Shown here piece by piece: positions 2,463 to 19,482 of a DNA stretch of 24,396 nucleotides (the stretch's first letter is position 1; every line of letters begins with the position of its first letter). The translations under genes and the position numbers were made by a program. This stretch comes from a virus. The notes beneath the pieces were generated by a model, which was not told the DNA's origin, ran no database searches, and worked only from the letters and a program-made list of their open reading frames with translations. The stretch spans positions 1 to 24,396 of the IMG/VR virus record IMGVR_UViG_3300046007_001916; one strand, written 5' to 3'.

Positions 2463-4604
2463 ATGGCTGATGTACCCATCACCGGTGAAATCAAGCCATA
2501 TGACCCGACGGTGCGCGAGCGCCTTGCGTCAGGCTTGCAGGCCGGGCTAGAGAAACTCGGTGTCAACCGGTACAAAGCCCGCCAGCGTGCTGACACGATT
2601 ATGGGCGGCCCAAGCAGTAACCTGCCGCTCAATGTTGGGCTGGCAGACTTCGTGCCGTTTCTGGGCACGGGCCTGCAAACGCAGGAGGCCGTGCGCGGCG
2701 GCGAGCAGGCGGTGCAGGCGGCCAAGCAGGGCGATGTGGTGGGTGCGGGTGTCGAGGGCACCTTCGCTGCGCTGGGGCTGGTTCCCGGGGCGGCAGGCAC
2801 CGTCCGCGCTGCACGGGCGCTGCGCCGTGGTGAGAAGTTCAAGCCGATGGCCACGCCTGAGGTTCCCAAAATAAAGGAGAGTCGATATGAAACAGCCCAA
2901 GAAGGCCCCTTCTACAGAGTCAAACCGAGATCTGCTCAAGCGGCTCGACCAAAGGATCGGGGAGTACGAGAAGAAGTACGGCAAGCCGACACTGCCGCAG
3001 GATCAGGTGGAGGCGATGTTCCGCAACCAGTATCGGACGAGGCGATCAGCCTACTGATCAAAGACCCGTCGAACTTCGTCTACCGCACGGCCGACGACTA
3101 CAGCCAGCGCGTCGGGGGCAAGGGCTACAGTCTGCCCGAGATGCCGCCCTCAAGTCTCGCGAAGCAGTCCGCCATCGGGCGCACCTTCCAACTGGCCGCC
3201 GACGGCGACGACGCCTACAAGCGCTCGGTCTTTGAGGCATACGGCAAGCGCTACCCCGAACTGGTCGAGGCCACCGGCGCACAGAACTACGACCAGTTGC
3301 TGGAGGCGTCCTACCGCCAGTTGGCCAAAGAGACCGCCGACCAGTTCCACGCCCTGCCGGTGAATATGTCCTACCACCGCGCCGGTGAGGGGAACTACCA
3401 GAGCAGCGGCGAGATGCTGCGCGATGTGTACGGCAACCGGCACCTGTATGTCTACCAAGGCGGCGACCCTCACGACTTCCTGAACGCGCTTGACCCCGAG
3501 TCCGGCCTGAACACCAACGAGATGTTCCGGGCCATCCACGACTTCTACGGGCACGCCGTCCATGGCAACCCGTTCGGCCCCAAGGGTGAGGAGATCGCCT
3601 ACGGGGCGCACGCCCAGATGTTCTCCCCCCTTGCGCGGATGGCCATGGCCAGCGAGACCCGGGGCCAGAACTCCTTCGTCAACTACACCCCTGTCAACGC
3701 CGAGATCAAGGCCCGCATCAACCGCCTGAATGAGGCCCGCTACGAGGCCAGCCGACGCGGCCAGAAGGCCGATGTGGCCGAGATCGACAAGTTGCTGGGG
3801 GAGGCATGGGGAGGCTTCCAGTTCGCGCCCCAGAAGAGCGTGCTGCTGCCCCCTGAGTTCATCGAGACCGCCTACACCGGCGGGATGCCCGGGTACATCC
3901 AGCCTCTGATCCGGCCGGAGCCGGGCACCGCGGCCTCGGAGATGCTGACCCACTTCAGCCATTCGCCCGATCTCCAGATGCTCGACCCGACCCGGTACGG
4001 CACCGGCATCAAGGGCCGGGAAATGGAGCGCCTCACGGGAACCGCCAACCCGGTGATGGAGCGATCCTACTTCTACACCGGCGACCCGTCTACGGTGCGT
4101 CCTGAGCCGGGGCTGGGGCGCTTCCGCTACGGCACTCGCAGCGAGGGTCTATACGACCTTGCGTCCGATCCTCTGCTGCTTCGCACGCTGGCCGCCGAGG
4201 CCAACCGCACCCCGTTCACGGCCAAGTACAACAAGGGCGTGGCCGATCCCTCCCAAGCCTTCACCGATGTGGAGCGCATGGCCAAGGAGTACGGCTACGA
4301 GGGCCTGATGAACCCGCAGCAAGGCACGGCCATCATGTACAAGCCCACGCCGGTGCAACCGTTTGCCCGCGGCGGAGCGGTGATGCCCGCGGCCAAGATC
4401 GGCGGCGAAGAGTTCGTGCGGGCGGCCGACAAGTACGGCCTGCTGACCGACAACGCTACCCTCAACCAGATCGTGGATCTCGTCAACCGCGGACTGTCCG
4501 TAGACGAGGCGGCCAAGATGCTGGCCCGCGGCCCGCAAGATCAGTTCGGCCGCGAGACAACCAAACGACAAGGCGGCCTTGCCGCAATCAAGAGGAGCCG
4601 CTGA
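2463..4604 (+). CDS. Polyvalent-like virion/ejected protein with HDxxGH domain
   Basis: This 713-residue protein has several parts. Residues 1-125 hold a Gly-rich, hydrophobic helical region (ADFVPFLGTGLQTQEA; FAALGLVPGAAGTVRAARAL) like the membrane-active or 'pretoxin' segments that precede effector domains. Residues about 138-190 are low in recognisable structure and overlap a nested ORF. Residues about 350-408 carry a conserved-looking block, MFRAIHDFYGHA, then GEEIAYGAHAQMFSP and ETRGQNSFVNY. There H359, D360, H364, E376/E377 and H383 could bind a metal. Residues about 495-630 (LDPTRYGTGIKG, YFYTGDPS, GLGRFRYG, GTAIMYKP) recall a second domain of phage and plasmid polyvalent proteins. The C-terminus has FARGGAV and KRQGGLA motifs. 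Such proteins are thought to enter the host with the DNA. That role, and any enzymatic activity, are inference. AATTAATG and GGGGAAG precede the start. Confidence 0.6.
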   Translation: MADVPITGEIKPYDPTVRERLASGLQAGLEKLGVNRYKARQRADTIMGGPSSNLPLNVGLADFVPFLGTGLQTQEAVRGGEQAVQAAKQGDVVGAGVEGTFAALGLVPGAAGTVRAARALRRGEKFKPMATPEVPKIKESRYETAQEGPFYRVKPRSAQAARPKDRGVREEVRQADTAAGSGGGDVPQPVSDEAISLLIKDPSNFVYRTADDYSQRVGGKGYSLPEMPPSSLAKQSAIGRTFQLAADGDDAYKRSVFEAYGKRYPELVEATGAQNYDQLLEASYRQLAKETADQFHALPVNMSYHRAGEGNYQSSGEMLRDVYGNRHLYVYQGGDPHDFLNALDPESGLNTNEMFRAIHDFYGHAVHGNPFGPKGEEIAYGAHAQMFSPLARMAMASETRGQNSFVNYTPVNAEIKARINRLNEARYEASRRGQKADVAEIDKLLGEAWGGFQFAPQKSVLLPPEFIETAYTGGMPGYIQPLIRPEPGTAASEMLTHFSHSPDLQMLDPTRYGTGIKGREMERLTGTANPVMERSYFYTGDPSTVRPEPGLGRFRYGTRSEGLYDLASDPLLLRTLAAEANRTPFTAKYNKGVADPSQAFTDVERMAKEYGYEGLMNPQQGTAIMYKPTPVQPFARGGAVMPAAKIGGEEFVRAADKYGLLTDNATLNQIVDLVNRGLSVDEAAKMLARGPQDQFGRETTKRQGGLAAIKRSR
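2887..3057 (+). CDS. Nested 56-codon ORF in the +1 frame of the polyvalent-like gene
   Basis: A 56-residue ORF starts with ATG at 2887, seven nucleotides after a strong AAAGGAG, and ends with TGA at 3055-3057. It lies wholly inside the larger gene in another frame. Its protein is a plausible charged helical one (DLLKRLDQRIGEYEKKYGKP, then EAMFRNQYRTRRSAY). By hand count 43 of 56 sense codons end in G or C. The containing frame has only 23 of 57 over the same stretch, although the rest of that gene is strongly GC3-biased. This points to real coding in the nested frame. It could be an overprinted gene, or a separate gene whose neighbours became fused. Function is unknown. Confidence 0.5.
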   Translation: MKQPKKAPSTESNRDLLKRLDQRIGEYEKKYGKPTLPQDQVEAMFRNQYRTRRSAY

Positions 4605-6046
4605 TGCCTACAGTACCAGCCGGGGCCAAAGAGGCCGCCAAGAACCGCCTGAAGCGCCTGCTGGGCATGGCCGACCAACCCAAGGCGGCTGAACTGCCTG
4701 CGGTAGAACCGTTTCCCAAGCCAATCGAAAGCCAATCGGTTTCCAAGATGGGTGAGGTGCTGGAGTCCAAGACGCCCCCGATGACCACGCCGCAGGGCAC
4801 TGGCCTGCCGCTGATGCCCAGAGGTCAGGGGATGTACACGCCCGGCGTACCGCAGGTGGATCTGCCGCGGATGCCCAGCGTGGACAAGGCCCGGGCCGCA
4901 GGCAAGACGCCCAAGTACACCGAGCGGATGCAAGACCTGCTCGATAGCCCGACCGCCCGCAAGAAGGCCGACAAACTGATCTCCAAGGGTGAAGAGTTGG
5001 GGATGCGGGAGTGGTACGGCACCGAGCCGCTGCGGCAGGTGGCCATGGACGCGGGCCTGAGCCAGAAGGAGTTCGACACCTTCCTCGCGCAGATGGCCTC
5101 CGCGTCCCAGCGCAACCCGGTTGACCAGCAGAACCGCATGGGTTCGTACCTGTGGCACCTGAGCCAGACCGGCGGCCTGCCGGATGACGCTTTCCTGCTG
5201 ACGAACAAGATCCGCCGGGGCAAGGAGCCGATGCCCGAGGGCACGCCGATTGAACTGCCGCCCGGGTACGGCTCGCTGGCGCAGGGCGATATCTTCAGCC
5301 GCGGCAAGCAGATCGCCGCTGGCGACATCGAGGGGGCGCTGCCGCCCGACAAGAAGTTGGGCACCTTCTACCGGAACTATCAGGGCAACCTGCGGCCGGT
5401 GACCGTGGATGTGAACGCGGTGCGAGGCCCGATCATCGAGCGCGGAGACCCGCGCTGGCTGGCGTCCAAACTGGTCGAGAAGGACGACGAGGGCAATGTG
5501 ATCGCCACGCACTTCCCGCGCAAGGATGTCGCTGAGGGCCGGATGTCACTGAAGGAGGCCAAGGAGCGCCCCGGGTTCTGGGAGGCTGCGCCTTCTGGGT
5601 CTGAGTATGCGGGCTTCGAAGACTTCTGGCAGCGTGCGGCCAAGCGCCGCGGCATTGACCCCGCCGAGGCCCAAGCGCTGGGCTGGTACGGGTCTGCCGA
5701 TGTCACGGCTCTCAAGACCAAGCCGGAGTTGTACATCGACAACCTTGAGCGCATGATCCGCCGCACCGCCGAGCAGACTGGCCGCAGCCCCTTGCAGGTG
5801 ATGCAGGAGGTTCTGCGCGGCAAGGACTACCTACGCAAGGAGGGCGGCTCGGTGACCAAGCGCTACAACGAGGGCGGTCTGGCTGCCGTCGAGCAGCCGC
5901 AGCAGCCGTCGCAGGACGAGATGGTGGCCATGCAGATTTTGGATATGGCGCGGGAGATGGGCGTCAGCCCTGAAGAGGTGATCATGATGCTCATGGAGCA
6001 GCAGAGCGCCCCCGTCAGTGGGCTTTCCATGGCCTCAAACGAATAA
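4604..6046 (+). CDS. Second polyvalent-like protein, unknown function
   Basis: This 480-residue protein is translated from an ATG overlapping the previous stop by one base (TGATG) and preceded by AGAGGAG. Residues 1-100 are Pro/Lys-rich and probably disordered. Residues about 103-190 (KADKLISKGEELGMREWYGT, then EFDTFLAQMASASQRNP) resemble a segment that I recall from large phage and plasmid polyvalent proteins, where a WY.T.PL signature precedes an 'A.TSPR'-like block. Residues about 355-410 (LGWYGSADVT, YIDNLERMIRRTAEQTGRSP) look like the matching C-terminal part of that segment. The tail carries RKEGGSV and YNEGGLA motifs, then a methionine-rich helix (EEVIMMLMEQQ). I infer a virion-associated or co-injected protein acting with its upstream neighbour. 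No catalytic residues can be named. Confidence 0.55.
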   Translation: MPTVPAGAKEAAKNRLKRLLGMADQPKAAELPAVEPFPKPIESQSVSKMGEVLESKTPPMTTPQGTGLPLMPRGQGMYTPGVPQVDLPRMPSVDKARAAGKTPKYTERMQDLLDSPTARKKADKLISKGEELGMREWYGTEPLRQVAMDAGLSQKEFDTFLAQMASASQRNPVDQQNRMGSYLWHLSQTGGLPDDAFLLTNKIRRGKEPMPEGTPIELPPGYGSLAQGDIFSRGKQIAAGDIEGALPPDKKLGTFYRNYQGNLRPVTVDVNAVRGPIIERGDPRWLASKLVEKDDEGNVIATHFPRKDVAEGRMSLKEAKERPGFWEAAPSGSEYAGFEDFWQRAAKRRGIDPAEAQALGWYGSADVTALKTKPELYIDNLERMIRRTAEQTGRSPLQVMQEVLRGKDYLRKEGGSVTKRYNEGGLAAVEQPQQPSQDEMVAMQILDMAREMGVSPEEVIMMLMEQQSAPVSGLSMASNE

Positions 6047-6058
6047 AGGAACCAGAAC

Positions 6059-8626
6059 ATGGCCACACAGATGCCGATTGACCCCGAGTTTGGGCGCTTC
6101 GTGGAGGGAATCCCTGACGATGCTTCGCCTGAGCAGCCGCCCGAGGGCGAAGAGGGCATGGAGGTCGAACTCGAACTGACCGACGACGACCTCGAAGAAC
6201 TGCCCGATGGGTCTGTTCGCGTCCGTCTGGACACCACCGGGCCGATGGACAGCAAGGACTTCTACGAGAACCTCGCCGACACCGACATCCTTGGCCTGAC
6301 CGAAATGAGCACGATGGCCCTTCGGTACATCGAACTGGCCGAAAAGGACAAGGAAGCCCGCAAGCAGCGCGACAAGCAGTACGAAGAGGGCATCAAGCGC
6401 ACCGGTTTGGGCAACGACGCCCCCGGCGGCGCGAATTTCCAAGGCGCATCGAAGGTAGTGCACCCCGTGATGGCCGAGGCGTGCGTCGATTTCGCTGCCC
6501 GCGCCATCAAGGAACTGTTCCCGCCTGATGGCCCGACCCGCACGAAGATCCTCGGCGATGTCGATGAGGAGAAAGTGGCCATTGCCGAGCGCAAGCGCGA
6601 CTACATGAACTGGCAGTTGTCGGAGCAGATCGAGGAATTCTGCGACGAGCAGGAGCAAATGCTTACCCAGTTGCCGCTTGGAGGCTCGCAGTACCTCAAG
6701 ATCTGGTACGACGAGAAGAAAAAGCGCCCCTGCGCCCAGTTTCTGCCCATCGACAATGTGCTTTTGCCCTTCGCGGCAGCCAATTTCTACACTTCGCCCC
6801 GGGTGACCGAGGTCGATGACATCTCCGAGTGGGAATTCCGCTCCCGAATCGCCTCTGGCCTGTACCGAGACACCGATTTCGTGCGGGCGACGATGGATCC
6901 CGAGCCGACCGGCCCCCAAAAGGCCACCGACAAGATCGAAGGACGGTCTCCAAACGACAACGAGGACGGTCTGCGCCGCGTCTACCACATCTATGCGTGG
7001 CTGGAGATCGAAAACGACCCCTACACCAAGGGTGAACCGGCCCCGTACATCCTGATGATCGACGAGATCAACACCGAGGTGGTGGGTCTGTACCGAAACT
7101 GGGAAGACGGCGACGAAACGATGACCAAACTCGACTGGATCGTCGAGTACAAATTCATCCCGTGGCGCGGTGCCTACGCCGTGGGCCTGCCGCACCTCAT
7201 TGGAGGGCTTTCCGCGGCCCTTACGGGCGCTTTGCGGGCCTTGCTGGACTCCGCCCACATCAACAACGCCGCGACGCTCCTAAAACTCAAGGGCGCGAAG
7301 GTTTCGGGCCAGTCTCAGCAGGTCGAAGTCACGCAGGTGGCCGAGATCGAGGCCGCCCCGGGCGTGGACGATGTCCGCAAGTTGGCCATGCCGATGCCGT
7401 TCAACCCGCCCAGCCCCGTGCTGTTCCAGTTGCTGGGCTGGCTGACCGACGCCGCCAAGGGTGTGGTGACCACCAGCGAAGAGAAGATCGCCGACATCAG
7501 TTCTACGGCCCCCGTGGGTACCACGCAGGCGCTGATCGAGCAGGGCGCGGCGGTGTTCTCGTCGATCCACGCACGCCTGCACAAGTCTCAGGCCCGGGTG
7601 CTGCGGATCCTGTCGCGCATCAATCGCTGGTACCTCGACGACATGAAGCGTGCCGAGGTGGTGGAAGACCTCGATGTCAAGCGCGAGGACTTCGCCCGCA
7701 TCACCGATGTGATCCCGGTCTCTGACCCGCACATCTTCAGCGAGACCCAGCGCATGGCCCAGACCCAAGCGGTCATGGCCATCATGGACAAGAACCCCGA
7801 TCTGTTCAACCGTCGGGCGGTGATCCAGCGGTTCCTCAAGCAGATCAAGGTGCCGGGCATCAACGAACTGATGACCGATGTGCCGCCCCCGGCCAAGATG
7901 GATGCGGCCAACGAGAATGTGGCCATGTCCATCGGGCAGGCTGCGTTCGCGTACCCCGAGCAGGATCACCTTGGGCACATTCAGGCCCACCTCGACTTCG
8001 CGAAGAACCCGGTGCTGGGTGCCAACCCCTTCATCGCCCCGGGCTTCCTGCCCAAGGCCATCGAGCACATCAAGCAGCACATCGTGCTGTGGTACCTCTC
8101 GCGCATGAACGGCTATGTCCAGAAGGCCATGGGCCAGAAGTTGGGCGACTACGACCTGCTCGACGATCCGAAGGATGTGGACAAGTTGTTCGCGCTGGCC
8201 AGCCAGCACACCGAGATGGACGCCGAGCAGACCCTGCAAGGCATCCTGCCGGTGATCCAGAAGATGGTTCAGGACTCGCAGAAGTACAAACCCAAGCCCG
8301 ACATGACGCCCGACGCGCAGGTGCTGTTACAGACCAGCATGGCCGAGACCCAGCGCCGTCAGGCCCGCGATCAGGCCGAGATGCAGCACAAGGACAAGGA
8401 ATTGGCCGCCAAGATTCAGGTGGACATGGCCGAGTTGCAGCAGCGCCAGCAGCGTGAGATGGAGGAGATGGAACTCCGGCTGGCCATCGCAACGGGCGAC
8501 ATGGAGTTGAAGGAACGCATCGAGACGGCTCGTCTGACGAGAGATGCGGCGCGAATTGTGAACGACAAGGAGCGTATCGTCATTGACTATCAATCCAAAC
8601 TCGGAGGTTCAAATGGCTACCAGTAA
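6059..8626 (+). CDS. Portal protein (head-tail connector ring)
   Basis: The portal forms the ring at one head vertex through which DNA is packaged and ejected. This 855-residue protein is long, as in podophage portals. Residues 1-65 are acidic (ELELTDDDLEEL). The core begins near 85 with a charged helix and a characteristic block (GASKVVHPVMAEACVDFAAR, then IKELFPPDGPTRTKI). Later come WLTDAAKGVVTTSEEKIADI and STAPVGTTQALIEQG, probably the stem and clip region. The final 90 residues are a Gln/Glu/Lys-rich coiled coil (MAELQQRQQREMEEMELRL), a plausible barrel or crown extension. AAAGGAA precedes the ATG by nine bases. The call rests on overall resemblance plus position between terminase and scaffold; no short diagnostic motif exists. 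Confidence 0.82.
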   Translation: MATQMPIDPEFGRFVEGIPDDASPEQPPEGEEGMEVELELTDDDLEELPDGSVRVRLDTTGPMDSKDFYENLADTDILGLTEMSTMALRYIELAEKDKEARKQRDKQYEEGIKRTGLGNDAPGGANFQGASKVVHPVMAEACVDFAARAIKELFPPDGPTRTKILGDVDEEKVAIAERKRDYMNWQLSEQIEEFCDEQEQMLTQLPLGGSQYLKIWYDEKKKRPCAQFLPIDNVLLPFAAANFYTSPRVTEVDDISEWEFRSRIASGLYRDTDFVRATMDPEPTGPQKATDKIEGRSPNDNEDGLRRVYHIYAWLEIENDPYTKGEPAPYILMIDEINTEVVGLYRNWEDGDETMTKLDWIVEYKFIPWRGAYAVGLPHLIGGLSAALTGALRALLDSAHINNAATLLKLKGAKVSGQSQQVEVTQVAEIEAAPGVDDVRKLAMPMPFNPPSPVLFQLLGWLTDAAKGVVTTSEEKIADISSTAPVGTTQALIEQGAAVFSSIHARLHKSQARVLRILSRINRWYLDDMKRAEVVEDLDVKREDFARITDVIPVSDPHIFSETQRMAQTQAVMAIMDKNPDLFNRRAVIQRFLKQIKVPGINELMTDVPPPAKMDAANENVAMSIGQAAFAYPEQDHLGHIQAHLDFAKNPVLGANPFIAPGFLPKAIEHIKQHIVLWYLSRMNGYVQKAMGQKLGDYDLLDDPKDVDKLFALASQHTEMDAEQTLQGILPVIQKMVQDSQKYKPKPDMTPDAQVLLQTSMAETQRRQARDQAEMQHKDKELAAKIQVDMAELQQRQQREMEEMELRLAIATGDMELKERIETARLTRDAARIVNDKERIVIDYQSKLGGSNGYQ

Positions 8627-8768: not shown

Positions 8769-8954
8769 ATGGCAACTATTTCCGATCTGATCGGCCGAAT
8801 CAAGGCGTCGCAGGCTCAAATTGCCTCGTCCTTGGCGCAGGGTAATGCGCCGAATTGGGACACCTATCAGCGGCTGGTCGGAAGAAACGAGGGACTAGAA
8901 GAAGCCCTCGAAATACTCAATAACCTGATGAAGGAAGACGATGAAGATGAATGA
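8769..8954 (+). CDS. Small helical acidic-tailed protein
   Basis: I do not recognise this 61-residue protein. It is predicted to be mostly two helices (ISDLIGRIKASQAQIASSL and RNEGLEEALEILNNLMKEDD) ending in a DDEDE tail, so it could be a small coiled-coil adaptor. The start ATG lies six bases after the previous stop and lacks a clear Shine-Dalgarno, so it probably depends on coupling. It overlaps the co-chaperonin gene by 14 nt, inside the head-assembly cluster. Confidence 0.6.
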   Translation: MATISDLIGRIKASQAQIASSLAQGNAPNWDTYQRLVGRNEGLEEALEILNNLMKEDDEDE

Positions 8955-9375
8955 ACCGGTAGCGGCTGACGCCGCTGAGATGGCTTGGGCATTTCCGAGC
9001 GTAGACCCCGGTGCGAAACCTCTTGGCGGCCGCATTCTCGTGCAGTTGCGCCGCACCAAAAAGAAGGCAACGAGTGCCGGGATTATCTTGGTCGAAGAGA
9101 CCAAGGAAACCGAGAAGTGGAACAACATGGTGGCCAAGGTCATCGAGGTCGGCCCATTGGCGTTCAAGCACCGCGACACGATGGTCGCGTGGCCTGAGGG
9201 CGCATGGTGCTCGGCAGGTGACTACATCCGCGTCCCCAAGTGGGGCGGTGATCGCTGGGAGGTTGAAGTGCCCGGCGAGGATGACGAAGATCCCGCGCTG
9301 TTCATGATCCTGAACGATCACGAAATCATCGCGAAGGTCACTGGCAATCCGCTTTTGATGAAGGCATTCGTATGA
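8941..9375 (+). CDS. GroES-like co-chaperonin (Cpn10 family)
   Basis: GroES caps the GroEL folding chamber. Phage versions such as T4 gp31 are needed to fold a capsid protein. After an N-terminal extension (1-25), the 144-residue protein follows the Cpn10 layout. PLGGRILVQL (27-36) matches the first strand ('PL.DRVLV'). A Lys-rich mobile-loop region follows, with SAGIILVEET (45-54) where GroES has the GroEL-binding GG-I-V-L segment. VAKVIEVGP (64-72) matches 'G.VVAVG.G'. GDYIRVPKWGGDRWEVE (93-109) matches the 'GD.V.F..Y.G' strand. FMILNDHEIIAKV (121-133) matches the final 'Y.I....ILA.V' strand. AAGGAAG lies five bases before ATG 8941, preferred over ATG 8947. Its location between portal and scaffold suggests a role in head-protein folding with host GroEL, since no GroEL gene is in the window. 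Confidence 0.8.
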   Translation: MKMNEPVAADAAEMAWAFPSVDPGAKPLGGRILVQLRRTKKKATSAGIILVEETKETEKWNNMVAKVIEVGPLAFKHRDTMVAWPEGAWCSAGDYIRVPKWGGDRWEVEVPGEDDEDPALFMILNDHEIIAKVTGNPLLMKAFV

Positions 9376-10319
9376 ACACAGAAACCAAACCCAAAGAAGA
9401 GGTCTTCGAGGTCACCGAAGAGAAGGACGGCTCCGTCATCGTCGAACTGCCCGAGGGCATGGAAGGCGTGGACATGGCTGACGGCGGTCAGGCGGCCGCT
9501 CAGGACGACTCTGGTGACGAAGACCAACCCGGTGACACCGACGCTATCCGCGACGCCCGCCGGGCACGACGCCGCGCCAAGAAAGAGTACATCAAGCGCA
9601 CCAACGAAGAGAAGGATCAGCGCCTGACCCTGCTCACGCGGCAGAACCAAGAACTCATGGAGCGGCTGGCCGCGGTGGAGCGCAAGACGCACACTGCCGA
9701 TCTGGCCCGTCTCGACTCGGCGATTTCCGACGAGGAGGCCCGCCTTGAGTTCTTCAAGCGCAAGATGCGCGAGGCCACCGACAACTCCGACGGTGCGGCC
9801 TTCATGCAGGCCCAAGAAGGCTGGTATGAGGCACGCCGCAAGGTCGAGGCCATGCAAGGCATCAAGCAACGCGCCGTGCAGGCCACAAACAACGACGCAG
9901 GCCCCGCCAATCCTCGCTTGGTCAAGTTGGCCAACCAGTGGATGGAGCGCAACCCTTGGTACGACCCCAATGGTGGGGACGAGGACAGCCAGATCGCCAA
10001 GTTGATCGACAACCGGCTGGCCTCCGAGGGCTGGGATCCCGCGAGCGAAGAGTATTGGGACGAGTTTGACAAACGCTTGCACGCTCGTTTACCGAATCGC
10101 TATACTCACGAACAAGACGACCAACCACGAAGGAGACCTCGAAGTTTCGTCACCGGCTCAAGTAGAGAATCATCGGTTCCCGGTCAAACTGGGAAAACCT
10201 TTGTCCTCGAACCTGAAATGGTACGGGCAATAAAGGATGCAGGACTGTGGGATGACCCCGCGTCACGCAACCGAATGATCAAACGCTACGCCGAGCAGGC
10301 ACGAAACAATAGAGGGTAA
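9372..10319 (+). CDS. Probable capsid scaffolding protein
   Basis: Scaffolding proteins guide capsid shell assembly and then leave or are cleaved. This 315-residue protein has the usual profile: a very acidic N-terminus (1-60), a basic patch (DARRARRRAKKEYIKR), then long coiled-coil helices (TLLTRQNQELMERLAAVERK; ARLEFFKRKMREAT). The Asp/Glu-rich middle contains WYDPNGGDEDSQIA, and the basic C-terminal helix (RNRMIKRYAEQARNNRG) is the kind that binds the shell in other phages. Start and co-chaperonin stop overlap as ATGA. It sits just upstream of the head genes, where scaffolds normally lie. No protease is evident in the window, so any cleavage would need another enzyme. The assignment rests on composition and order, not on a specific motif. 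Confidence 0.7.
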   Translation: MNTETKPKEEVFEVTEEKDGSVIVELPEGMEGVDMADGGQAAAQDDSGDEDQPGDTDAIRDARRARRRAKKEYIKRTNEEKDQRLTLLTRQNQELMERLAAVERKTHTADLARLDSAISDEEARLEFFKRKMREATDNSDGAAFMQAQEGWYEARRKVEAMQGIKQRAVQATNNDAGPANPRLVKLANQWMERNPWYDPNGGDEDSQIAKLIDNRLASEGWDPASEEYWDEFDKRLHARLPNRYTHEQDDQPRRRPRSFVTGSSRESSVPGQTGKTFVLEPEMVRAIKDAGLWDDPASRNRMIKRYAEQARNNRG

Positions 10320-11478: not shown

Positions 11479-12393
11479 ATGGCCGCTCCGATGCGTAGTA
11501 CCGACTTTCGGTCAATCGTTGAACCAATCCTGAATGAATGCTTCGATGGCGTTTACGACCAGCGTGCTGATGAGTGGAGCCGAGTGTTCCGCGAACAGCA
11601 AGGCATTCCCCGCAACTACCACGAAGAACCCGTCCTGTACGGTTTCGGCGCTGCGCCGGAACTGCCTGATGGCACTCCGGTGACCTATCAGCAGGGTGGT
11701 GTGCTGTTCCTCAAGCGCTATGTGTACAAGGTGTATGGCCTCGCCTTCGCCCTGACCAAAGTGCTGGTTGAGGACGGCGACCACATCCGTATCGGTCAGG
11801 TGTATGCCCGCCACCTCGCTCAGTCCCTGATCGAGACTAAGGAAACGCTGGCCGCCAATGTGCTGAACCGCGCATTCAACGCCTCGTACCCCGGTGGTGA
11901 CGGTGTGGCACTGAACAGTGCCTCGCACCCCATCGTGAACGGCACCTTCAGCAACCTGCTGACCACCGCCGCGAACCTGTCGCAGACCTCGCTTGAGCAG
12001 ATGCTCATCCAGATCCGTCAGGCCGTGGACAACAACGGCAAGAAGATCCGTCTGGTGCCCCGCCAACTGGTGGTGGCCCCCGGCAATGTCTTCCAAGCCG
12101 AGGTGCTCCTGAAGTCCGTGCTGCGTGCTGGCAACGCGAACAACGACATCAACCCCATCAAGTCGATTGGCTTGCTGGACGAGGGTGCCGCTGTGATCTC
12201 GCGTCTGACCAGCGCAACCGCATGGTGGGTGCAGACCGATGCCCCCGAGGGCATGAAGTTGATGATGCGCCGTCGTCTGGAAAAGACGATGGAGGGCGAT
12301 TTCGAAACCGACTCGATGCGCTACAAGGCCACCGAGCGTTACGACATCGGCTTCACTGATCCTCGTGCCATGTATGGCACGCCGGGCGTCTAA
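11479..12393 (+). CDS. Major capsid protein (HK97-fold type)
   Basis: This is the best candidate for the shell subunit: 304 residues, following scaffold and decoration-type genes with a strong AAAGGGGTGA ribosome-binding site. It opens with an N-terminal arm helix (RSTDFRSIVEPILNECFDGV). An E-loop-like region follows (PVTYQQGGVLFLKRYVYKVY), then a spine-helix-like stretch (ARHLAQSLIETKETLAANVL). The P/A-domain segments include KKIRLVPRQLVVAPGNVFQA and SRLTSATAWWVQTDAPEGMK. C-terminal strands (SMRYKATERYDIGFTDPRAM) are typical of HK97-fold capsid proteins. No N-terminal delta-domain or protease is seen, consistent with use of a separate scaffold. A UUCG hairpin follows the stop. Confidence 0.88.
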   Translation: MAAPMRSTDFRSIVEPILNECFDGVYDQRADEWSRVFREQQGIPRNYHEEPVLYGFGAAPELPDGTPVTYQQGGVLFLKRYVYKVYGLAFALTKVLVEDGDHIRIGQVYARHLAQSLIETKETLAANVLNRAFNASYPGGDGVALNSASHPIVNGTFSNLLTTAANLSQTSLEQMLIQIRQAVDNNGKKIRLVPRQLVVAPGNVFQAEVLLKSVLRAGNANNDINPIKSIGLLDEGAAVISRLTSATAWWVQTDAPEGMKLMMRRRLEKTMEGDFETDSMRYKATERYDIGFTDPRAMYGTPGV

Positions 12394-12402
12394 ACATGAG
12401 AT

Positions 12403-12420
12403 GGGGGGCTTCGGCCTCCC
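12403..12420 (+). terminator. UUCG hairpin after the major capsid gene
   Basis: GGGGGGC, the loop TTCG and GCCTCCC form a 7-bp stem with one G-T wobble, ten bases after the capsid stop. The following tract is TCTCTTC, only partly T-rich. It may be an intrinsic or leaky terminator, or an mRNA-stabilising hairpin that keeps capsid transcript levels high. The next gene's ribosome-binding site (AGGAGAA) follows directly. Confidence 0.55.
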
Positions 12421-12438: not shown

Positions 12439-12888
12439 ATGGCACAAACCTACTTTGGTTCCGCCCTGCGCTCCGGTTCTGGCACGCTGACCGACACCAC
12501 TGACGGCGGTTTCGTCGTCTTGATGCAGACCAGCACCGTAACCACGAACGCAGACGGAACCGCGTCCAGTACCAGTGTCACCATCCCTGCCGGTTCGCAA
12601 CTCATCGATCTTCTGATTGATCAGGTGCAGAACGAGGTAGTCGGTGGCGGCACCGCAACCGCGATCAACGCAACGGTTGGCACCGCTGCCGCAGGTACCC
12701 AATACCTGTCGGCCACGGATGTCATCGGTGGCGGTCGCGCTGCGCTAACTTTCACCGCTGCTCAGTTGGCCGCGATGGCTGATGTTGGTTCCAATACCAG
12801 CGTCTTCCTGACGGTTGACCCGAACGGCACTATCAGCACCACTCAGGGCATCTACCGCTTCACCGTGGTATACGCCCAGAAGGGTTGA
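12439..12888 (+). CDS. Beta-rich small virion-type protein
   Basis: I do not recognise a named family in this 149-residue protein. It is rich in Thr, Ser, Gly, Ala and Val with alternating hydrophobic patterns (TASSTSVTIPAGSQLIDLLI; SVFLTVDPNGTISTTQGIYR), which suggests a beta-sandwich virion protein such as a head-decoration or fibre-like component. It starts after AGGAGAACGAC, just downstream of the capsid gene hairpin. There is no signal peptide or transmembrane helix. Position supports a structural role; the exact one is not visible. Confidence 0.6.
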   Translation: MAQTYFGSALRSGSGTLTDTTDGGFVVLMQTSTVTTNADGTASSTSVTIPAGSQLIDLLIDQVQNEVVGGGTATAINATVGTAAAGTQYLSATDVIGGGRAALTFTAAQLAAMADVGSNTSVFLTVDPNGTISTTQGIYRFTVVYAQKG

Positions 12889-12899
12889 GGAGGCACATC

Positions 12900-14048
12900 A
12901 TGGGCCAATTCAAACCAATGGTGAAGATGATGACCACCGAGCCGTCCGTTGAGTTGAAACTCAAGAAGGGCGGCAAGGTGGAGAAGAAGATGCAGATGGG
13001 CGGCTCGCCAGACATGGCTGCTCCCGCGATGTCTTCGATGCCCGCTCGTGGCGGCATGATGGGTGCCAAGGCCCCCATGAAGCCCTCGATGGCTGCTCGT
13101 CGTCGCGCGATGCGTGCAATGCCTTCTGGTGCCGCCCCCGCGGCTCCTGTGGGCATGGCCGCTCAAGTGATGAAAGAGGGCGGCGAGACCAAGTCCATGC
13201 ACAAGGCCGAGATGGCCAAGATGGCCAAGACCTCCAAGGCGTTGAAAGAACACGCCGACAAACCCGCGTCCAAGGCCCACAAGGGCCTGAAGACCGGTGG
13301 TGTGGTCATGGGTCAGGGCGGCTACAAAAAAGGCGGCTCGGTCAAGATGGCTGAGGGCGGTTTGCCCAAGAGCGGCATCATCAACACCGAGAACCAAGGT
13401 GGTGAGTACCGCAACACCAAGATGCACACCGCAAAGCCCGACCACTCTCCGGCCAAAACCGGCGATGTGAAGATGGGCAATGCTGGTGGGTACGCTACTG
13501 GTGGCGTTGCAAAGGCGAATGCTGGCGGCTACAAAAAAGGCGGCGCAGCAAAAAAAGCCTACGCGGCGGGGGGAGTTGTTGATAGCGGTGCCCCCGTCGC
13601 GATGCCCCAAGGCCGCAAAAAGCCCAGCGCCCCGGTGTCCATCACCGAACTCTCCGGCACCTTCAAGAAAGGCGGCAAGGTAACTGCCGCTGAAGGCCGC
13701 TTGCAGAAGGCATTCACGAAGGAAAACGCCACGGCCATGAAACAGGCCAAGGCGTACTCCAACGAGGTGTACAGCAAGTACGGCAAGAAGATGAAGGAGG
13801 GCGGCGTTCCTGCTGAGGTTGAAGACCAGTTGAAGACGAACCGCAATCAGCGGGCGTATGAGAACTGGGAGAAGTCTCAGCGCGAAGAGAACGAGGGGAT
13901 GCGTAACGCGATCCTCGGTGCTCCCAAGCGCGTCATGCAGGGGATCAAGGGCTTGTTCTCTCCCAAAGTGCCAGAAGGCAGCGTCACCAAGACCAAGGAG
14001 TCTGTCACTGTGACACCTGCCAAGAAGCGCGGCGGACGAGTGTGCTGA
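12900..14048 (+). CDS. Lys/Gly/Met-rich protein with repeated KGG motifs
   Basis: This 382-residue, strongly basic protein has no catalytic domain that I recognise. It opens GQFKPMVKMMTTEPSVELKL. It contains at least eight short motifs of the form K-K/E/R-G-G, for example KLKKGGKVEKK, MKEGGETK, YKKGGSVK, YKKGGAAKK, FKKGGKV, MKEGGVP and the C-terminal KKRGGRVC. Long stretches are low-complexity (MHKAEMAKMAKTSKALKEH). A more globular helical part lies at about 285-345 (KQAKAYSNEVYSKYGKK; AYENWEKSQREENEGM). ATG 12900 is preferred over an upstream in-frame TTG at 12885 because GAGGAGG (12887-12893) lies six bases before the ATG. Possible roles are DNA condensation, membrane interaction or virion assembly; all are inference. 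A strong terminator-like hairpin follows. Confidence 0.75.
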   Translation: MGQFKPMVKMMTTEPSVELKLKKGGKVEKKMQMGGSPDMAAPAMSSMPARGGMMGAKAPMKPSMAARRRAMRAMPSGAAPAAPVGMAAQVMKEGGETKSMHKAEMAKMAKTSKALKEHADKPASKAHKGLKTGGVVMGQGGYKKGGSVKMAEGGLPKSGIINTENQGGEYRNTKMHTAKPDHSPAKTGDVKMGNAGGYATGGVAKANAGGYKKGGAAKKAYAAGGVVDSGAPVAMPQGRKKPSAPVSITELSGTFKKGGKVTAAEGRLQKAFTKENATAMKQAKAYSNEVYSKYGKKMKEGGVPAEVEDQLKTNRNQRAYENWEKSQREENEGMRNAILGAPKRVMQGIKGLFSPKVPEGSVTKTKESVTVTPAKKRGGRVC

Positions 14049-14051
14049 AAC

Positions 14052-14080
14052 AAGGTGGGGGCTTCGGCCCCCGCTTTCTT
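14052..14080 (+). terminator. Intrinsic terminator with UUCG loop
   Basis: AAGGTGGGGGC (14052-14062) pairs with GCCCCCGCTTT (14067-14077) around a TTCG loop, giving an 11-bp stem with two wobbles. The T-rich run TTTCTT follows the GC core. It lies immediately after the stop of the KGG-rich gene and before the next ribosome-binding site. This is the strongest terminator candidate in the window. Its core matches that of the hairpin at 12403-12420. Confidence 0.7.
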
Positions 14081-14398: not shown

Positions 14399-15177
14399 TG
14401 TCCACGGTCATCTCCTCAATTACGCGGCAAGGGGCGTTCGAGCCTTTCGAACTCCAAGTCGCTCGCGGCCAGATTCAAGGCCACAGGAATGTCACCGTAT
14501 TCGGCTTCAACCCCGATGTGGACACCACGCAGGTGTCTGTCTGGCCGCTGCCCAGCCTGATCACTTTCCCGGCATCTGCCATCCAGATGACGGTCAGTTC
14601 GACCAGCGCGAACGATACGAGCGCAGGCACCGGTGCCCGCACGGTCGTTGTGCAAGGTCTGGACGCCAACTACAACGAAGTCACCGAGACGGTCACCCTC
14701 AATGGCCAGACCGCGGTGACGATGACCGCATCACTGCTGCGCGTCAACTACGCCTATGTGGCCACCGCAGGCTCTGGCAACAGCGCCGCGGGCGACATCT
14801 ACATCGGCACGGGCACAGTGACCGCGGGCGTTCCCGCGACCACTTACGACATCATCAAGTTCGACTACAACAACACGACCACGGGCAGTTACACCATCCC
14901 GGCCGGGTACACGGGCTATGTGTCTCAGGGCCTGTTCTCCAGCGGCCAGTCTGGCGGTTCCAACCAAGTTCAGGGCCGACTGCTGACCCGCGGTACCAAC
15001 AACATCCGAATGACCGCCGCGCTGACAACCCTAAACAACGGCGTGGCGAACTATGTGTTCGAGTACCCGTTGGCGGTTCCAGAGAAGACGACGATTGAGG
15101 CCACTGCAATTGGCAGTTCGAGCAACAACGCCTGCTCCTCGATGTTCATTCTGGTTCTCGTGAAAGAGGGGCCGTGA
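14398..15177 (+). CDS. Virion structural protein, beta-sandwich-like
   Basis: This 259-residue protein is Thr/Ser/Gly/Val-rich. Residues about 78-108 hold TGARTVVVQGLDANYNEVTE followed by TVTLNGQTAVTM, a block I recall from structural proteins of many environmental short-tailed phages. Further strands include SYTIPAGYTGYVSQGLFSSG and the C-terminal AVPEKTTIEATAIG with SMFILVLVKEGP. There is no signal peptide or membrane helix. It is translationally coupled to the gene before (TGATG) and after. It most likely forms part of the head surface or head-tail junction; this rests on fold-like composition and order. Confidence 0.65.
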   Translation: MSTVISSITRQGAFEPFELQVARGQIQGHRNVTVFGFNPDVDTTQVSVWPLPSLITFPASAIQMTVSSTSANDTSAGTGARTVVVQGLDANYNEVTETVTLNGQTAVTMTASLLRVNYAYVATAGSGNSAAGDIYIGTGTVTAGVPATTYDIIKFDYNNTTTGSYTIPAGYTGYVSQGLFSSGQSGGSNQVQGRLLTRGTNNIRMTAALTTLNNGVANYVFEYPLAVPEKTTIEATAIGSSSNNACSSMFILVLVKEGP

Positions 15178-15581
15178 TGCCAGCCAAGTCCCAAGCCCAG
15201 TTCCGGCTGATGAAAGCCGCGGAGAACAACCCCAAGTTTGCCAAGAAGGTCGGCATCAAGCCGAGCGTGGCGGCCGAGTTCACTGCGTCCAACAAGGGCA
15301 AGAAGGCGTACAGCGGCCTGCCAGAGCGCATGAAAGAGGGCGGGGTGTCCCTTGCTGTGGGCCGAGGCGAAAAAATGCCTGTAGAGCGCGGCGCTGGCCT
15401 CACGGCCAAGGGTCGGGCCAAGTACAACCGCGAGACGGGGTCGAATTTGAAGGCTCCGCAGCCCCAAGGGGGCGCTCGTCGGGACTCGTTTTGCGCGAGA
15501 ATGGAGCCTGTTGCAGAGAAAAGCGATAAGGGGAGTCGCGCCCGTGCGTCCATGAAGCGTTGGAACTGCCCCGGATGGTGA
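15177..15581 (+). CDS. Basic protein with PAKSQAQ-type start and KEGG motif
   Basis: This 134-residue basic protein opens MPAKSQAQFRLMKAAENNP, resembling the 'MPAKSK.QQR.M' start of a widespread family of short uncharacterised proteins. It continues with FAKKVGIKPSVAAEFTAS, a motif MKEGGVSLAV, and a Lys/Arg-rich C-terminus ending KRWNCPGW. ATG 15177 overlaps the previous stop and follows GAGGGG; the in-frame GTG at 15174 is possible but less likely. It shares the K-E-G-G-x-V motif with its neighbours. Function is unknown; nucleic-acid or capsid-interior binding would fit the charge. Confidence 0.65.
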   Translation: MPAKSQAQFRLMKAAENNPKFAKKVGIKPSVAAEFTASNKGKKAYSGLPERMKEGGVSLAVGRGEKMPVERGAGLTAKGRAKYNRETGSNLKAPQPQGGARRDSFCARMEPVAEKSDKGSRARASMKRWNCPGW

Positions 15582-15588
15582 GGTGAAC

Positions 15589-16662
15589 ATGGCCTACTCG
15601 GGAACCGTCGGTACGACCGTCATCCAAGTCCAGACCCTGATTGATCACGGGGCGCGTCGCTGCGGGAAATTGGCCGAGGAGTTGACCTCCGAGCAGGTTT
15701 TGAGTGCCCGCGAGTCGCTGTTTTTTCTGCTTTCGAACCTGATCAACATCGGGATCCAGTACTGGGCCATCGACAAGAAGGTCTACGGCCTGAAGGCCGA
15801 CCAGTACATCTACAAATTGCCTCTGGGCGGCAACGATGTGCTCCAAGCACTGTACCGCCGCATGAACAGGCCCACCCCGAACAGCACCGGCGGGTACGCA
15901 TCGAGTGCCGGGGGCATCGTTGGAAACGCCTTTGACTCGAACATTGACACCCTCTGTACCCAAACCAGCGCCAACGGCACCATCACAGTCGATTACGGCA
16001 CCAACAATCCGGTCTACATCGGCTCAATCGGCGTTTTGCCGGGCGTTTCTGCGAGTATCGATTGCGTATTTGAGTACTCCGCCGACGGGATCACTTGGAG
16101 CACGCTCTACGACCCGGGTGTGACCGCTTGGGTCAACGATGAATGGCTCTGGTACGACATCGACCCGGGCCAGACTGTGCAGTTCTACCGTATCCGGGCC
16201 AGAAACGGCTCGACGCTGTCGCTTCGTGAACTTTACTTCGGGAACAACTCGACCGAGATCACGATGGCGCGTCTGAACAGGGACGACTACACGAACCTGC
16301 CGAACAAAAACTTCACCGCCAACCAGCCGTTCCAGTACTGGTTCAACCGCACGATCCCCGAGTCGGAGATCTACCTTTGGCCGGTGCCTTCGGACACCTT
16401 CGTTCAGATGACGGTCTGGTACTCGCGCCAGATCATGGATGTCGGCTCGCTCTCCGGCGAACTGGAGATCCCCCAGCGCTGGTTCTTGGCCGTGCAGTCG
16501 ATGCTGGCTCACCAGATGAGCCTCGAACTGCCGGGTGTTGCGCTGGATCGCATCACCTACCTTGAGGGTCAGGCCGAGAAGTACCTGACCTTGGCCGAGG
16601 TCGAGGAGCGCGACAAGTCGCCGATCTACTTCGCGCCGAACATCAGCGTCTACACGAGGTAA
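15589..16662 (+). CDS. Head-tail connector with inserted discoidin-like domain
   Basis: The helical N-terminus (1-95; QTLIDHGARRCGKLAEELTS, LFFLLSNLINIGIQYWAIDK) and the C-terminal part (about 225-357; ITMARLNRDDYTNLPNK, EIYLWPVPSDTFVQMTVWYS, RWFLAVQSMLAHQM) resemble P22 gp4/T7 gp11-class adaptors that seal the portal and join the tail. Between them, about 100-218, sits a beta domain like an F5/8-type (discoidin) galactose-binding fold, with AFDSNIDTLCTQTSANGTIT, VFEYSADGITWSTLYD and QFYRIRARNGSTLSLRELYF. ATG 15589 is preferred; an in-frame GTG at 15583 is the alternative. Connector identity is supported by the order head genes, this gene, fibres. The insert may bind a glycan or another virion protein. 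Confidence 0.7.
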   Translation: MAYSGTVGTTVIQVQTLIDHGARRCGKLAEELTSEQVLSARESLFFLLSNLINIGIQYWAIDKKVYGLKADQYIYKLPLGGNDVLQALYRRMNRPTPNSTGGYASSAGGIVGNAFDSNIDTLCTQTSANGTITVDYGTNNPVYIGSIGVLPGVSASIDCVFEYSADGITWSTLYDPGVTAWVNDEWLWYDIDPGQTVQFYRIRARNGSTLSLRELYFGNNSTEITMARLNRDDYTNLPNKNFTANQPFQYWFNRTIPESEIYLWPVPSDTFVQMTVWYSRQIMDVGSLSGELEIPQRWFLAVQSMLAHQMSLELPGVALDRITYLEGQAEKYLTLAEVEERDKSPIYFAPNISVYTR

Positions 16663-17011: not shown

Positions 17012-19471
17012 ATGCCGAACTTAACCATCACCCAACTCCCGGCGGCTGGCCCCATCACTGGGACGGAACTCGTCCCCATCGTTCAGAACGGCCAGACCCT
17101 TCGCACGACCACGGCGGCCTTGGCTGGCTCGCCGGTGCAGACCCAGACTTTCCTGACGCTCAATCAGGAGCCGACTCTGATCAACAGCCGGGCGCTTTCC
17201 GGCGGCACCGGCATCGGTCTTGTGGATGGTGGAGCGCTCTCGACCCTTCAGATCACGCTCAACGGCACTTCCGGGGCTTTGGAAGGGGCTGGTACAGGGA
17301 TCATCGTAAAAACGGGTTCTGGGGCCGTTTCTGCCCGTTCTGTGGCGGTTTCTGGCACCGGTCTGGCCATCGCCAACGGCTCCGGGGTCTCAGGAAACCC
17401 GACGATCTCGCTGGATGGGCTGATTTCGGCCATCGCGCAGGTCGGCGGCACGGGTCTGCTGGCCTTCCAGAACGGCACCACCGCGGGCGGGGTGCTGATC
17501 GCCGGTACTGCAAACCAGATCGCGGTGGCCAACGGCAACGGGCAGGGCGGTAATCCGACCATCTCGATGGTGTCCGACCCGGTCATCCCCGGCGTGGCCG
17601 GTATGGTGATCCCCGTGGGCACCGCCGCGCAGGAGCCGGTTGGAACCCCGGGCCAGTTCCGCTTCAACAGCACCAACCAGACCTTCGACGGCTACGCAAA
17701 CGGCCAGTGGCGGCAGTTCTCGCTCGCCGGTGGCGTGACAACCTTCAGCGCTGGCTCGACTGGCTTTACCCCGTCGTCGCCAACCAGCGGCGCGGTGGTG
17801 CTGGCTGGCATCCTGAACCCTGCCTCTGGCGGCACGGGTGTCAACAACGGCTCCTACACCACCACGCTGGGCGGCAGCATCAGCACCGCGGGAGCATTCA
17901 CGACCTCTGGCGCGTTCCCGCTCACGCTGACGGCCACGGCCTCGACGAATATCACCCTGCCCACCACGGGCACGCTGGCCACGCTGGCGGGTGCCGAGAC
18001 CCTGACCAACAAGACGATGTCGGGGTCTTCGAACACCTTCTTGAACATCCCCAACGCGGCCCTGACCAACTCGTCAATCACTATCGGCTCGACCTCGGTC
18101 TCGCTGGGCGGCACGATCACGACCTTCACCGGGACATCGATCAGTGGCTCGACCAACACGCTGTCGAACATTGGCAACGCGAGCCTGACGAACTCCTCGG
18201 TGACCTACAACGGGGTCACGGTGGCCCTCGGGGCTTCGGGCACGATCACGGCCTCCACAACGGCCGCGCTGACCGTCGGCACCGGCCTGCAACTGGATTC
18301 GGGTACGACCTTCAACGGCTCGGTTGCTCGGACGATCAGCATCGACTCGACCGTCGTCACGCTGACCGGCTCGCAGACCCTGACGAACAAGACCCTGACC
18401 GCGCCGGTCATCGCGACGATTGTCAACAGCGGCACGCTCACGCTTCCGACCTCGACTGATACCTTGGTTGGGCGGGCAACAACCGACACGCTGACGAACA
18501 AGACGATCAGCGGCTCGACGAACACCCTGAGCAACATCGGCAACGGGTCTCTGACGAACTCGACGATCTCGTTCACCTACTCCGGCGGCATCTCAGGCTC
18601 TGCCTCAGTTGCGTTAGGGAGCACGAACGCGCTGTCGCTGTCGAACATCCCGAACGCCTCGCTGGCCAACAGCGCGGTGACCATCGGCACGACCTCGATC
18701 TCGCTTGGCGCGACCTCGCTGACTCTGGCGGGCCTGACTTCGGTCACACTCACGCAAGACCCGGTGTCTGCCTTGCAGGCTGCCACGAAGCAGTATGTGG
18801 ACACGCTGGTTGCCTCGGGCATTCACTTTCACACGCCTGTCCGCGTCGAGTCCCCGACTCCGCTGAACGCGACCTACAACAACGGCTCTTCCGGTGTGGG
18901 CGCAACGCTGACCAATGCTGGCACTCAGGCCGCACTGGTGATCGACGGCGTGACCCTCTCGGTCAATGACCGCGTGCTGGTTTACACCCAGACCAACGCG
19001 ACGGAAAACGGCGTCTATGTGGTCACCAATACCGGTTCTGTCTCGACGAACTGGATCTTGACCCGCTCGTCTGACACAGACACCTATGGCATCGCTGGCC
19101 CGAACACACTGAGCGAAGGATCGACCTTCTTCGTTCAGCAGGGCACAACGGGCGCTGGTGAGACTTACACCTGCAACACGCAAGGCGTGATCACCTTCGG
19201 TACGACGGCGATCACCTTCGTGCAGGTGTCTGCCGCGCAGGTCTACTCTGCCGGTACCGGCCTGACGCTGTCGGGCACTCAGTTCAGTCTGACCGTGCCG
19301 GTGACGGCAATTCTGGGCGGGACTGGGCAAACCTCTTATACCGCAGGAGACCTGCTGTATGCCTCAACAAGCACTGCACTCAGTAAACTAGCGCTGGGAA
19401 CCCAAGGATATGTCCTAAAGGCCGGGGCCACTGGCCCTGAGTGGGGCGTGATCTCCGGCGGGACTTTCTAA
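17012..19471 (+). CDS. Tail fibre/spike protein 1
   Basis: This 819-residue protein is almost all Thr/Ser/Gly/Asn-rich beta structure. It opens with LTITQLPAAGPITGTELVPI, a start found on phage tail-attached proteins. Residues about 335-560 repeat units such as TLTNKTMSGSSNTF, LTNKTLTAP and LTNKTISGSTNTLSNIGNGS. Residues about 583-745 form a module common in tail fibres: AATKQYVDTLVASGIHFHTP, VIDGVTLSVNDRVLVYTQT, NGVYVVTNTG and STFFVQQGTT. The end (about 768-815; ILGGTGQTSYTAGDLLYAST, then PEWG) is also found near the start of the next fibre. It probably trimerises into a shaft, linking the tail to the receptor-binding fibre. No lyase or hydrolase motif is visible. Confidence 0.78.
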   Translation: MPNLTITQLPAAGPITGTELVPIVQNGQTLRTTTAALAGSPVQTQTFLTLNQEPTLINSRALSGGTGIGLVDGGALSTLQITLNGTSGALEGAGTGIIVKTGSGAVSARSVAVSGTGLAIANGSGVSGNPTISLDGLISAIAQVGGTGLLAFQNGTTAGGVLIAGTANQIAVANGNGQGGNPTISMVSDPVIPGVAGMVIPVGTAAQEPVGTPGQFRFNSTNQTFDGYANGQWRQFSLAGGVTTFSAGSTGFTPSSPTSGAVVLAGILNPASGGTGVNNGSYTTTLGGSISTAGAFTTSGAFPLTLTATASTNITLPTTGTLATLAGAETLTNKTMSGSSNTFLNIPNAALTNSSITIGSTSVSLGGTITTFTGTSISGSTNTLSNIGNASLTNSSVTYNGVTVALGASGTITASTTAALTVGTGLQLDSGTTFNGSVARTISIDSTVVTLTGSQTLTNKTLTAPVIATIVNSGTLTLPTSTDTLVGRATTDTLTNKTISGSTNTLSNIGNGSLTNSTISFTYSGGISGSASVALGSTNALSLSNIPNASLANSAVTIGTTSISLGATSLTLAGLTSVTLTQDPVSALQAATKQYVDTLVASGIHFHTPVRVESPTPLNATYNNGSSGVGATLTNAGTQAALVIDGVTLSVNDRVLVYTQTNATENGVYVVTNTGSVSTNWILTRSSDTDTYGIAGPNTLSEGSTFFVQQGTTGAGETYTCNTQGVITFGTTAITFVQVSAAQVYSAGTGLTLSGTQFSLTVPVTAILGGTGQTSYTAGDLLYASTSTALSKLALGTQGYVLKAGATGPEWGVISGGTF

Positions 19472-19482
19472 AGGAAAACGAC

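Follow-up and report, generated by a model that had tools for sequence, protein, structure and literature searches.

The protein encoded at positions 12,900 to 14,048 of the window (the whole analysed stretch, a 24,396-base virus record with head and tail genes of a tailed phage) belongs to a large, so far unnamed family of uncultured aquatic phages that is annotated, if anywhere, as hypothetical protein; we call it the KGG protein. From its charge, its disorder, its operon position and a motif common to it and to proteins encoded between terminase and portal, we infer a DNA-binding component located inside the phage head and produced from the capsid operon, a reading to which we give an even chance. 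The earlier note had suggested a DNA-condensing internal head protein, and these features, drawn from sequence and structural models, are consistent with that idea. Protein loading with DNA into phage heads is poorly understood beyond T4, P22, N4 and a few others, and a widespread basic, disordered family beside the capsid gene, with a motif recurring in likely packaged proteins, would permit a direct test of short cargo-sorting tags; in addition, a gene annotated only as hypothetical is now named and clearly delimited. The gene and its parts are as follows.

12900..14048, + strand: KGG protein gene (coding 12900-14045 plus stop), 382 aa; from the open reading frame, relatives and dN/dS of 0.09-0.23
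12888..12893, + strand: AGGAGG ribosome-binding site of the KGG gene; from sequence
12900..12980, + strand: codons 1-27, the most conserved N-terminal stretch, MGQFKPMVKMMTTEPSVELKLKKGGKV; from the family alignment
13290..13680, + strand: GG-rich repeated modules (TG-x-V-K-x-GNAGGY-xx-GG type), residues about 131-260; from sequence

The open reading frame runs exactly as first reported, and its product is indeed extremely basic and rich in Lys, Gly and Met (40.0 kDa, pI 10.17 and net charge +41, computed from the 382-aa translation; K 14.7%, G 13.9%, A 13.4%, M 7.6%). The repeated KGG described by the earlier note was also borne out: the protein has 17 GG, 16 of them preceded by K, E, Q, T, N, R or A vs. 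3.6 expected from its own composition, a number reached in 0 of 1,000 shuffles, and among 25 window genes only the KGG gene has p < 0.001 by GG-site count. All 9 pairs of relatives tested gave dN/dS between 0.088 and 0.232, indicative of purifying selection; thus, the gene is not a chance open reading frame. An upstream AGGAGG, AGGAG, GAGG or GGAG lies within 20 bases of the start in 152 of the 161 starts with enough upstream sequence. At an E cut-off of 0.1, Pfam, PHROGs and NCBIfam contained no family matching the window protein, seven divergent relatives matched no Pfam family, and a search of PDB sequences with the KGG profile gave no matches.

IMG/VR protein scans yielded at least 589 related stretches for the window query and 541 for the query from ctpbd312 (MW202545.1, a complete genome from Manatee Spring), of which the best 80 each were retained; with ctpbd312 itself and three MAG contigs, these selections make up the 164 loci examined. 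The KGG gene is complete in 159 of them, corresponding to 140 distinct proteins whose length ranges from 336 to 572 aa, with a median of 397, all with a net charge between +28 and +51 and, as a family, with a Lys:Arg ratio of 3.8. The window protein opens with FKPMVKM...EPSVxLKLKKGG; FKPMVKM is found in 133 and LKLKKGG in 136 of the 140, and positions 4-7, 9, 10, 12, 14, 15, 19-21, 24, 25 and 27 are invariant in the 134 proteins with FKP at residues 4-6, a conservation to be read with caution given that one of the six search patterns per scan was derived from the N-terminal 27 residues and that the patterns favour this stretch. The middle of the proteins is rich in indels and repeats: the module TG-x-[VI]-[KR] ... 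GG[YF] is single in 84 proteins, double in 30, triple in 17 and absent from 9, and the mean number of GG per protein is 17.8 vs. 7.8 after shuffling. A C-terminal Cys, invariant in the first alignment of 26 sequences, is present in 115 of the 140 and was dropped as an invariant feature on the wider set. In the annotated phage collection, ctpbd312 was the sole match; its UOF78453.1, annotated as hypothetical protein, has the same slot, N and C termini and hairpin as the window gene, at 449 aa compared to 382. Of the three MAG contigs, two are binned as betaproteobacteria, a weak hint at a freshwater betaproteobacterial host. Two contigs call for comment: one of 61,862 bases (G007) carries two different KGG genes near its two ends (L098:325-1494 and L100:14286-15479) and is likely a chimeric or overlapping assembly, and another (L104), binned as Akkermansia muciniphila with a KGG gene cut at the contig end, is probably a phage contig placed in a metagenome bin.

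Gene order in the window is terminase, two large proteins, portal, a GroES-like gene, an acidic scaffold-like gene, two further genes, the major capsid protein gene, a 149-aa gene and the KGG gene, with these neighbours:

6059..8626, + strand: portal protein (phrog_1216, E 4e-16)
8941..9375, + strand: GroES-like co-chaperonin (phrog_3188, E 1.9e-9)
9372..10319, + strand: 315-aa acidic protein, probable scaffold by position only
11479..12393, + strand: major capsid protein gene, 304 aa (Pfam Phage_capsid_4, 52.8 bits; 90.5% identity to the annotated major capsid protein of ctpbd312)
12439..12888, + strand: 149-aa gene between capsid and KGG genes; other phages have a different head gene in this slot
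15174..15581, + strand: basic DUF6321 protein, downstream of the KGG gene (Pfam DUF6321, 53.9 bits)
15583..16662, + strand: tail adaptor, by homology with the annotated tail adaptor of ctpbd312

The synteny proposed by the earlier note as a check on the N-terminal opening holds across relatives. Of the 133 complete loci whose upstream sequence exceeds 1.2 kb, 132 have the major capsid gene on that side of the KGG gene; of the 144 that extend beyond 1.5 kb on the downstream side, 143 have DUF6321 there and 140 the tail adaptor. The gene had been placed directly after the capsid genes; it is downstream of the major capsid gene, but one gene intervenes, in a slot that is variable across loci (149-aa type or 321-aa type). 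Searches of the capsid and 149-aa proteins against PDB sequences gave only chance matches. A GroES-like gene is present in the head operon of both the window and the viewed relatives with similar capsids, the DUF6321 proteins of some relatives contain KGG-type sites, and positions 17012-22899 of the window encode two large Gly/Thr/Asn-rich repeat proteins (819 and 1152 aa) that are tail-fibre-like by composition.

Two hairpins accompany this segment:

14055..14074, + strand: hairpin GTGGGGGCTTCGGCCCCCGC 3' of the KGG stop, -15.9 kcal/mol
about 12403..12420, + strand: similar, weaker hairpin 3' of the major capsid gene, -13.5 kcal/mol

The terminator-like hairpin from which controlled, possibly abundant expression had been proposed is real and conserved: a strict rule finds it after the KGG stop in 152 of 159 loci, and inspection by eye shows a hairpin in the other seven. 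It is G+C-rich, with a UUCG loop in 135 of the 152, and its outer pairs covary in a compensatory manner (pair 6: T-G, T-A, C-G, G-C). However, it is not the only one of its kind in the window, and the T-run that follows is short (only 21 of the 152 have five or more T among the 8 bases after the hairpin), so that a leaky terminator, a 3'-end stabiliser and a processing site are all possible, and to call it a terminator is to guess. The hairpin 3' of the capsid gene was considered as a constant twin and rejected, given its presence in 68 of 145 loci (vs. 36 of 725 random 60-mers from the loci). T7 has a leaky terminator 3' of its capsid gene and, by analogy, the KGG gene would close a strongly expressed head segment.

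The KGG protein is predicted to be mostly disordered, with a few helices (mean pLDDT of the AlphaFold2 models 46 with 26 sequences and 57 with 64):

13191..13259, + strand: predicted Ala/Lys/Met helix, residues 98-119 (approximate); AlphaFold2 model
13686..13958, + strand: two long helices, residues 263-293 and 305-353; AlphaFold2 with 64 sequences, ten-residue blocks with pLDDT up to 95

In the 64-sequence model, residues 1-60 and 127-260 are without regular structure. Of the Ala-Lys-Met helices described by the earlier note, only that at residues 98-119 fits the description, whereas the two long ones, better scored in the deeper model, are of mixed charge. These are not family-wide either, as the motif of the first is present in 60 of 140 proteins. 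Foldseek with the second model returned one match at E < 0.001, an uncharacterised phage protein with a TM-score of 0.10, therefore a sequence relative that provides no clue to the fold, and neither PDB sequences nor Foldseek gave a structural relative of known function.

To score the motif elsewhere, we built a profile from the sequence context of GG across the 140 family members and, with the family lower quartile (3.78) as the threshold, applied it to every other coding-strand protein of seven genomes (six IMG/VR contigs and ctpbd312). High-scoring sites made up 20 of 105 GG in the terminase-portal proteins (1.7 expected by shuffling), 15 of 335 in the ejection cluster between the gp10-like and SLT-domain genes (2.6 expected) and 2 of 863 in all other proteins (4.0 expected). 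With G007, which is close to G003, left out, the respective counts were 14/88, 9/279 and 1/608. The contrast is not due to composition because a composition-only profile, made from shuffled family proteins, gives no such contrast (38/105, 65/335 and 274/863); 0 of 5,000 random length-matched protein sets reached the profile count, and the nominal p-values of these tests are not literal, homologous proteins not being independent.

The protein classes had been chosen after looser looks at the first seven genomes and, therefore, six further genomes served as a test. There, 34 of 141 GG in terminase-portal proteins were high-scoring (2.4 expected), compared to 3 of 114 in the ejection cluster (1.15 expected) and 10 of 643 elsewhere (5.1 expected); at least one site was found in 11 of 11 terminase-portal proteins vs. 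7 of 316 others. Thus, the terminase-portal enrichment replicates, whereas that of the ejection cluster does not clearly do so. Nine of the ten sites elsewhere are in proteins of 61 to 191 aa encoded no more than about 3 kb downstream of the KGG gene. Among the first seven genomes, six have KGG-type sites in the marked proteins; in G001, the full relative closest to the window, none of the 72 GG in terminase-portal and ejection proteins scores high, which speaks against the internal-head reading. The interval proteins of the window itself contain a single passing site:

2463..4604, + strand: terminase-portal interval protein, 713 aa; one high-scoring KGG-type site, PFARGGAV at residue 637
4604..6046, + strand: terminase-portal interval protein, 480 aa; best site 2.3 vs. 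threshold 3.78, none above

These two open reading frames (2463-6046) match the two halves, in reversed order, of single 1351-aa and 1366-aa open reading frames in G003 and G007, respectively. Outside the KGG group, the profile gave 4/117 GG in DSL-LC04 (1.4 expected), 4/280 in HTVC023P (2.1), 1/73 in HTVC027P (1.4) and 2/137 in RW (1.3), and no high-scoring site in CRP-901 (0/103), Pag-Yong1 (0/76), QDWS535 (0/44) or ct2G2228 (0/41); the divergent family member L103 had 4/43 (0.3 expected). A genome-wide tag sought with loose motifs was not generally supported, and only the profile test separated the classes. Loose-motif counts, observed/expected, were 7/4.4 in G001, 5/4.1 in G002, 11/4.9 in G003, 6/4.0 in G005, 7/3.6 in G006, 14/5.4 in G007, 7/2.8 in ctpbd312 and 7/1.3 in L103; a second such test placed most of 15 gene sets near or below expectation, and in a third, 5 or fewer of 200 shuffles reached the count in 7 of 18 sets.

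As for the marked proteins, a terminase-portal protein of G005 has an ART-PolyVal domain above the cut-off, those of ctpbd312 and DSL-LC04 have GP88 and PcfJ domains, respectively, and no domain reaches the cut-off in those of G003, G006 and the window. Polyvalent proteins are predicted, in a passage of PMC5512222, to be packaged in virions and injected. The KGG protein itself has no enzymatic or known polyvalent domain detectable with Pfam, the polyvalent criterion being two or more. In the ejection cluster, the SLT protein resembles an 'internal virion protein with endolysin domain' (phrog_342, E 8.7e-14), and there is a weak match to a DNA ejection protein (E 0.003).

Under the preferred reading, the KGG protein would be a product of the late operon, expressed from its capsid end, and the conserved N-terminal peptide would attach it to an unvarying partner, namely, shell, scaffold or portal. 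The Lys-rich, disordered GG modules would run along the packaged DNA and offset its charge, and the C-terminal helices may bind the protein itself or another protein. The motif common to both suggests that the KGG protein and the large terminase-portal proteins are handled together, conceivably, by co-packaging.

The motif could also mean more than this. The KGG-type sites might be a short packing tag, repeated many times in the KGG protein and present in one or a few copies in other internal proteins, with the N-terminal peptide of the KGG protein linking cargo to the capsid wall, a possibility that we rate as unlikely. It fits the presence of the motif in all held-out terminase-portal proteins and in small basic late proteins downstream of the KGG gene; the single passing site in the window's own interval proteins and the near-chance results of the looser tests in several genomes speak against it, and the motifs could be mere flexible linkers. 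The earlier note had spoken of a scaffold for other KGG proteins; by the profile tests, the shared motif is real and restricted, though binding would be a further step. That the motif (roughly [MYLF]-[AK]-[KTE]-G-G-x-[VIA]) serves this phage group as a packing tag for proteins bound for the head interior, and that the KGG protein, anchored by its N-terminus and bearing as many as two dozen GG sites, is a multivalent receptor or organiser of cargo and DNA, is a doubtful proposition and the boldest reading that the data allow, albeit one that has a specific, replicated sequence signal; if true, the tag would constitute a cargo-sorting system for tailed-phage heads without a protease-cut leader.

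We consider it quite unlikely that the KGG protein is a host-acting factor, made late or injected, that binds host nucleic acid or ribosomes and forms no stable part of the head. A basic, disordered, RGG/KGG-like composition such as that of the KGG protein suits RNA as well as DNA; however, the gene keeps a constant slot in the capsid-adaptor interval, and the motif is common to proteins that are themselves near-structural. Genes adjoining the capsid gene often encode cement proteins, and relatives such as DSL-LC04 have annotated cement proteins in that slot, but a role on the outside or at a vertex of the shell, as a cement, decoration or neck protein with a disordered body, is improbable for a highly basic protein with mostly low pLDDT, and the intervening 149-aa or 321-aa head gene is the likelier cement. 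Equally improbable is an assembly factor confined to proheads and lost on maturation (a second scaffold or a capsid chaperone client), for which the head operon and the nearby GroES-like gene would speak, given that scaffolds are usually acidic or neutral and that a gene for a different, acidic scaffold-like protein already precedes the capsid gene.

Returning to a DNA-binding component inside the head, several known systems bear comparison. Adenovirus core and protamine-like viral proteins are basic and of low complexity, and the DNA-condensing role proposed for the KGG protein would resemble theirs, although it is Lys- rather than Arg-rich and homology is not expected. The KGG phage has a P22-like gene order, with an SLT-domain internal virion protein encoded elsewhere in the genome; unlike P22-type ejection proteins, the KGG protein lacks their domains and is encoded in the head operon, outside the ejection cluster that includes the SLT-domain protein. 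The T4 internal head proteins (IPI-III, Alt) are late and head-associated, some of them basic and some injected (in part from a passage of PMC5512222), and no sequence relation to the KGG protein was found. In the subset of window and G001 proteins submitted to PHROG or Pfam scans, no prohead protease family was detected, and cleavage at GG sites by an adenovirus-like or prohead protease was dropped, there being no protease among the proteins scanned. Small Lys/Gly/Met-rich proteins of 75-83 aa in DSL-LC04 and Pag-Yong1 occupy the same capsid-adaptor interval and have a KGG-like composition without detected homology; they would be, at best, analogues. The passages of PMC9382816, PMC9599517, PMC10149686, PMC11053796 and PMC5512222 that were available describe neither the protein nor the motif, which is no proof of absence.

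Counting against the preferred reading, the closest cultured relatives by capsid, the Caulobacter phages RW, RLK, KcrB and GB2A (78.0% identity), have no KGG homologue detected in the annotated phage collection; given the capsid of RW, the KGG protein is not required by this shell type. In RW, the capsid gene is followed by an unrelated 501-aa gene with a net charge of +22, no mechanically called open reading frame passes the basic, Lys-rich or K/G/M-rich filter (59.7 of 62.4 kb), and an annotated 42-aa protein is Lys-rich. In a passage of PMC11053796, the capsid gene of the phage cluster of RW is given as not identified. RW_GP086c (MK929790.1; L105:9001-9915) is 78% identical to the window capsid protein and, thus, is very probably the missing capsid gene of that cluster.
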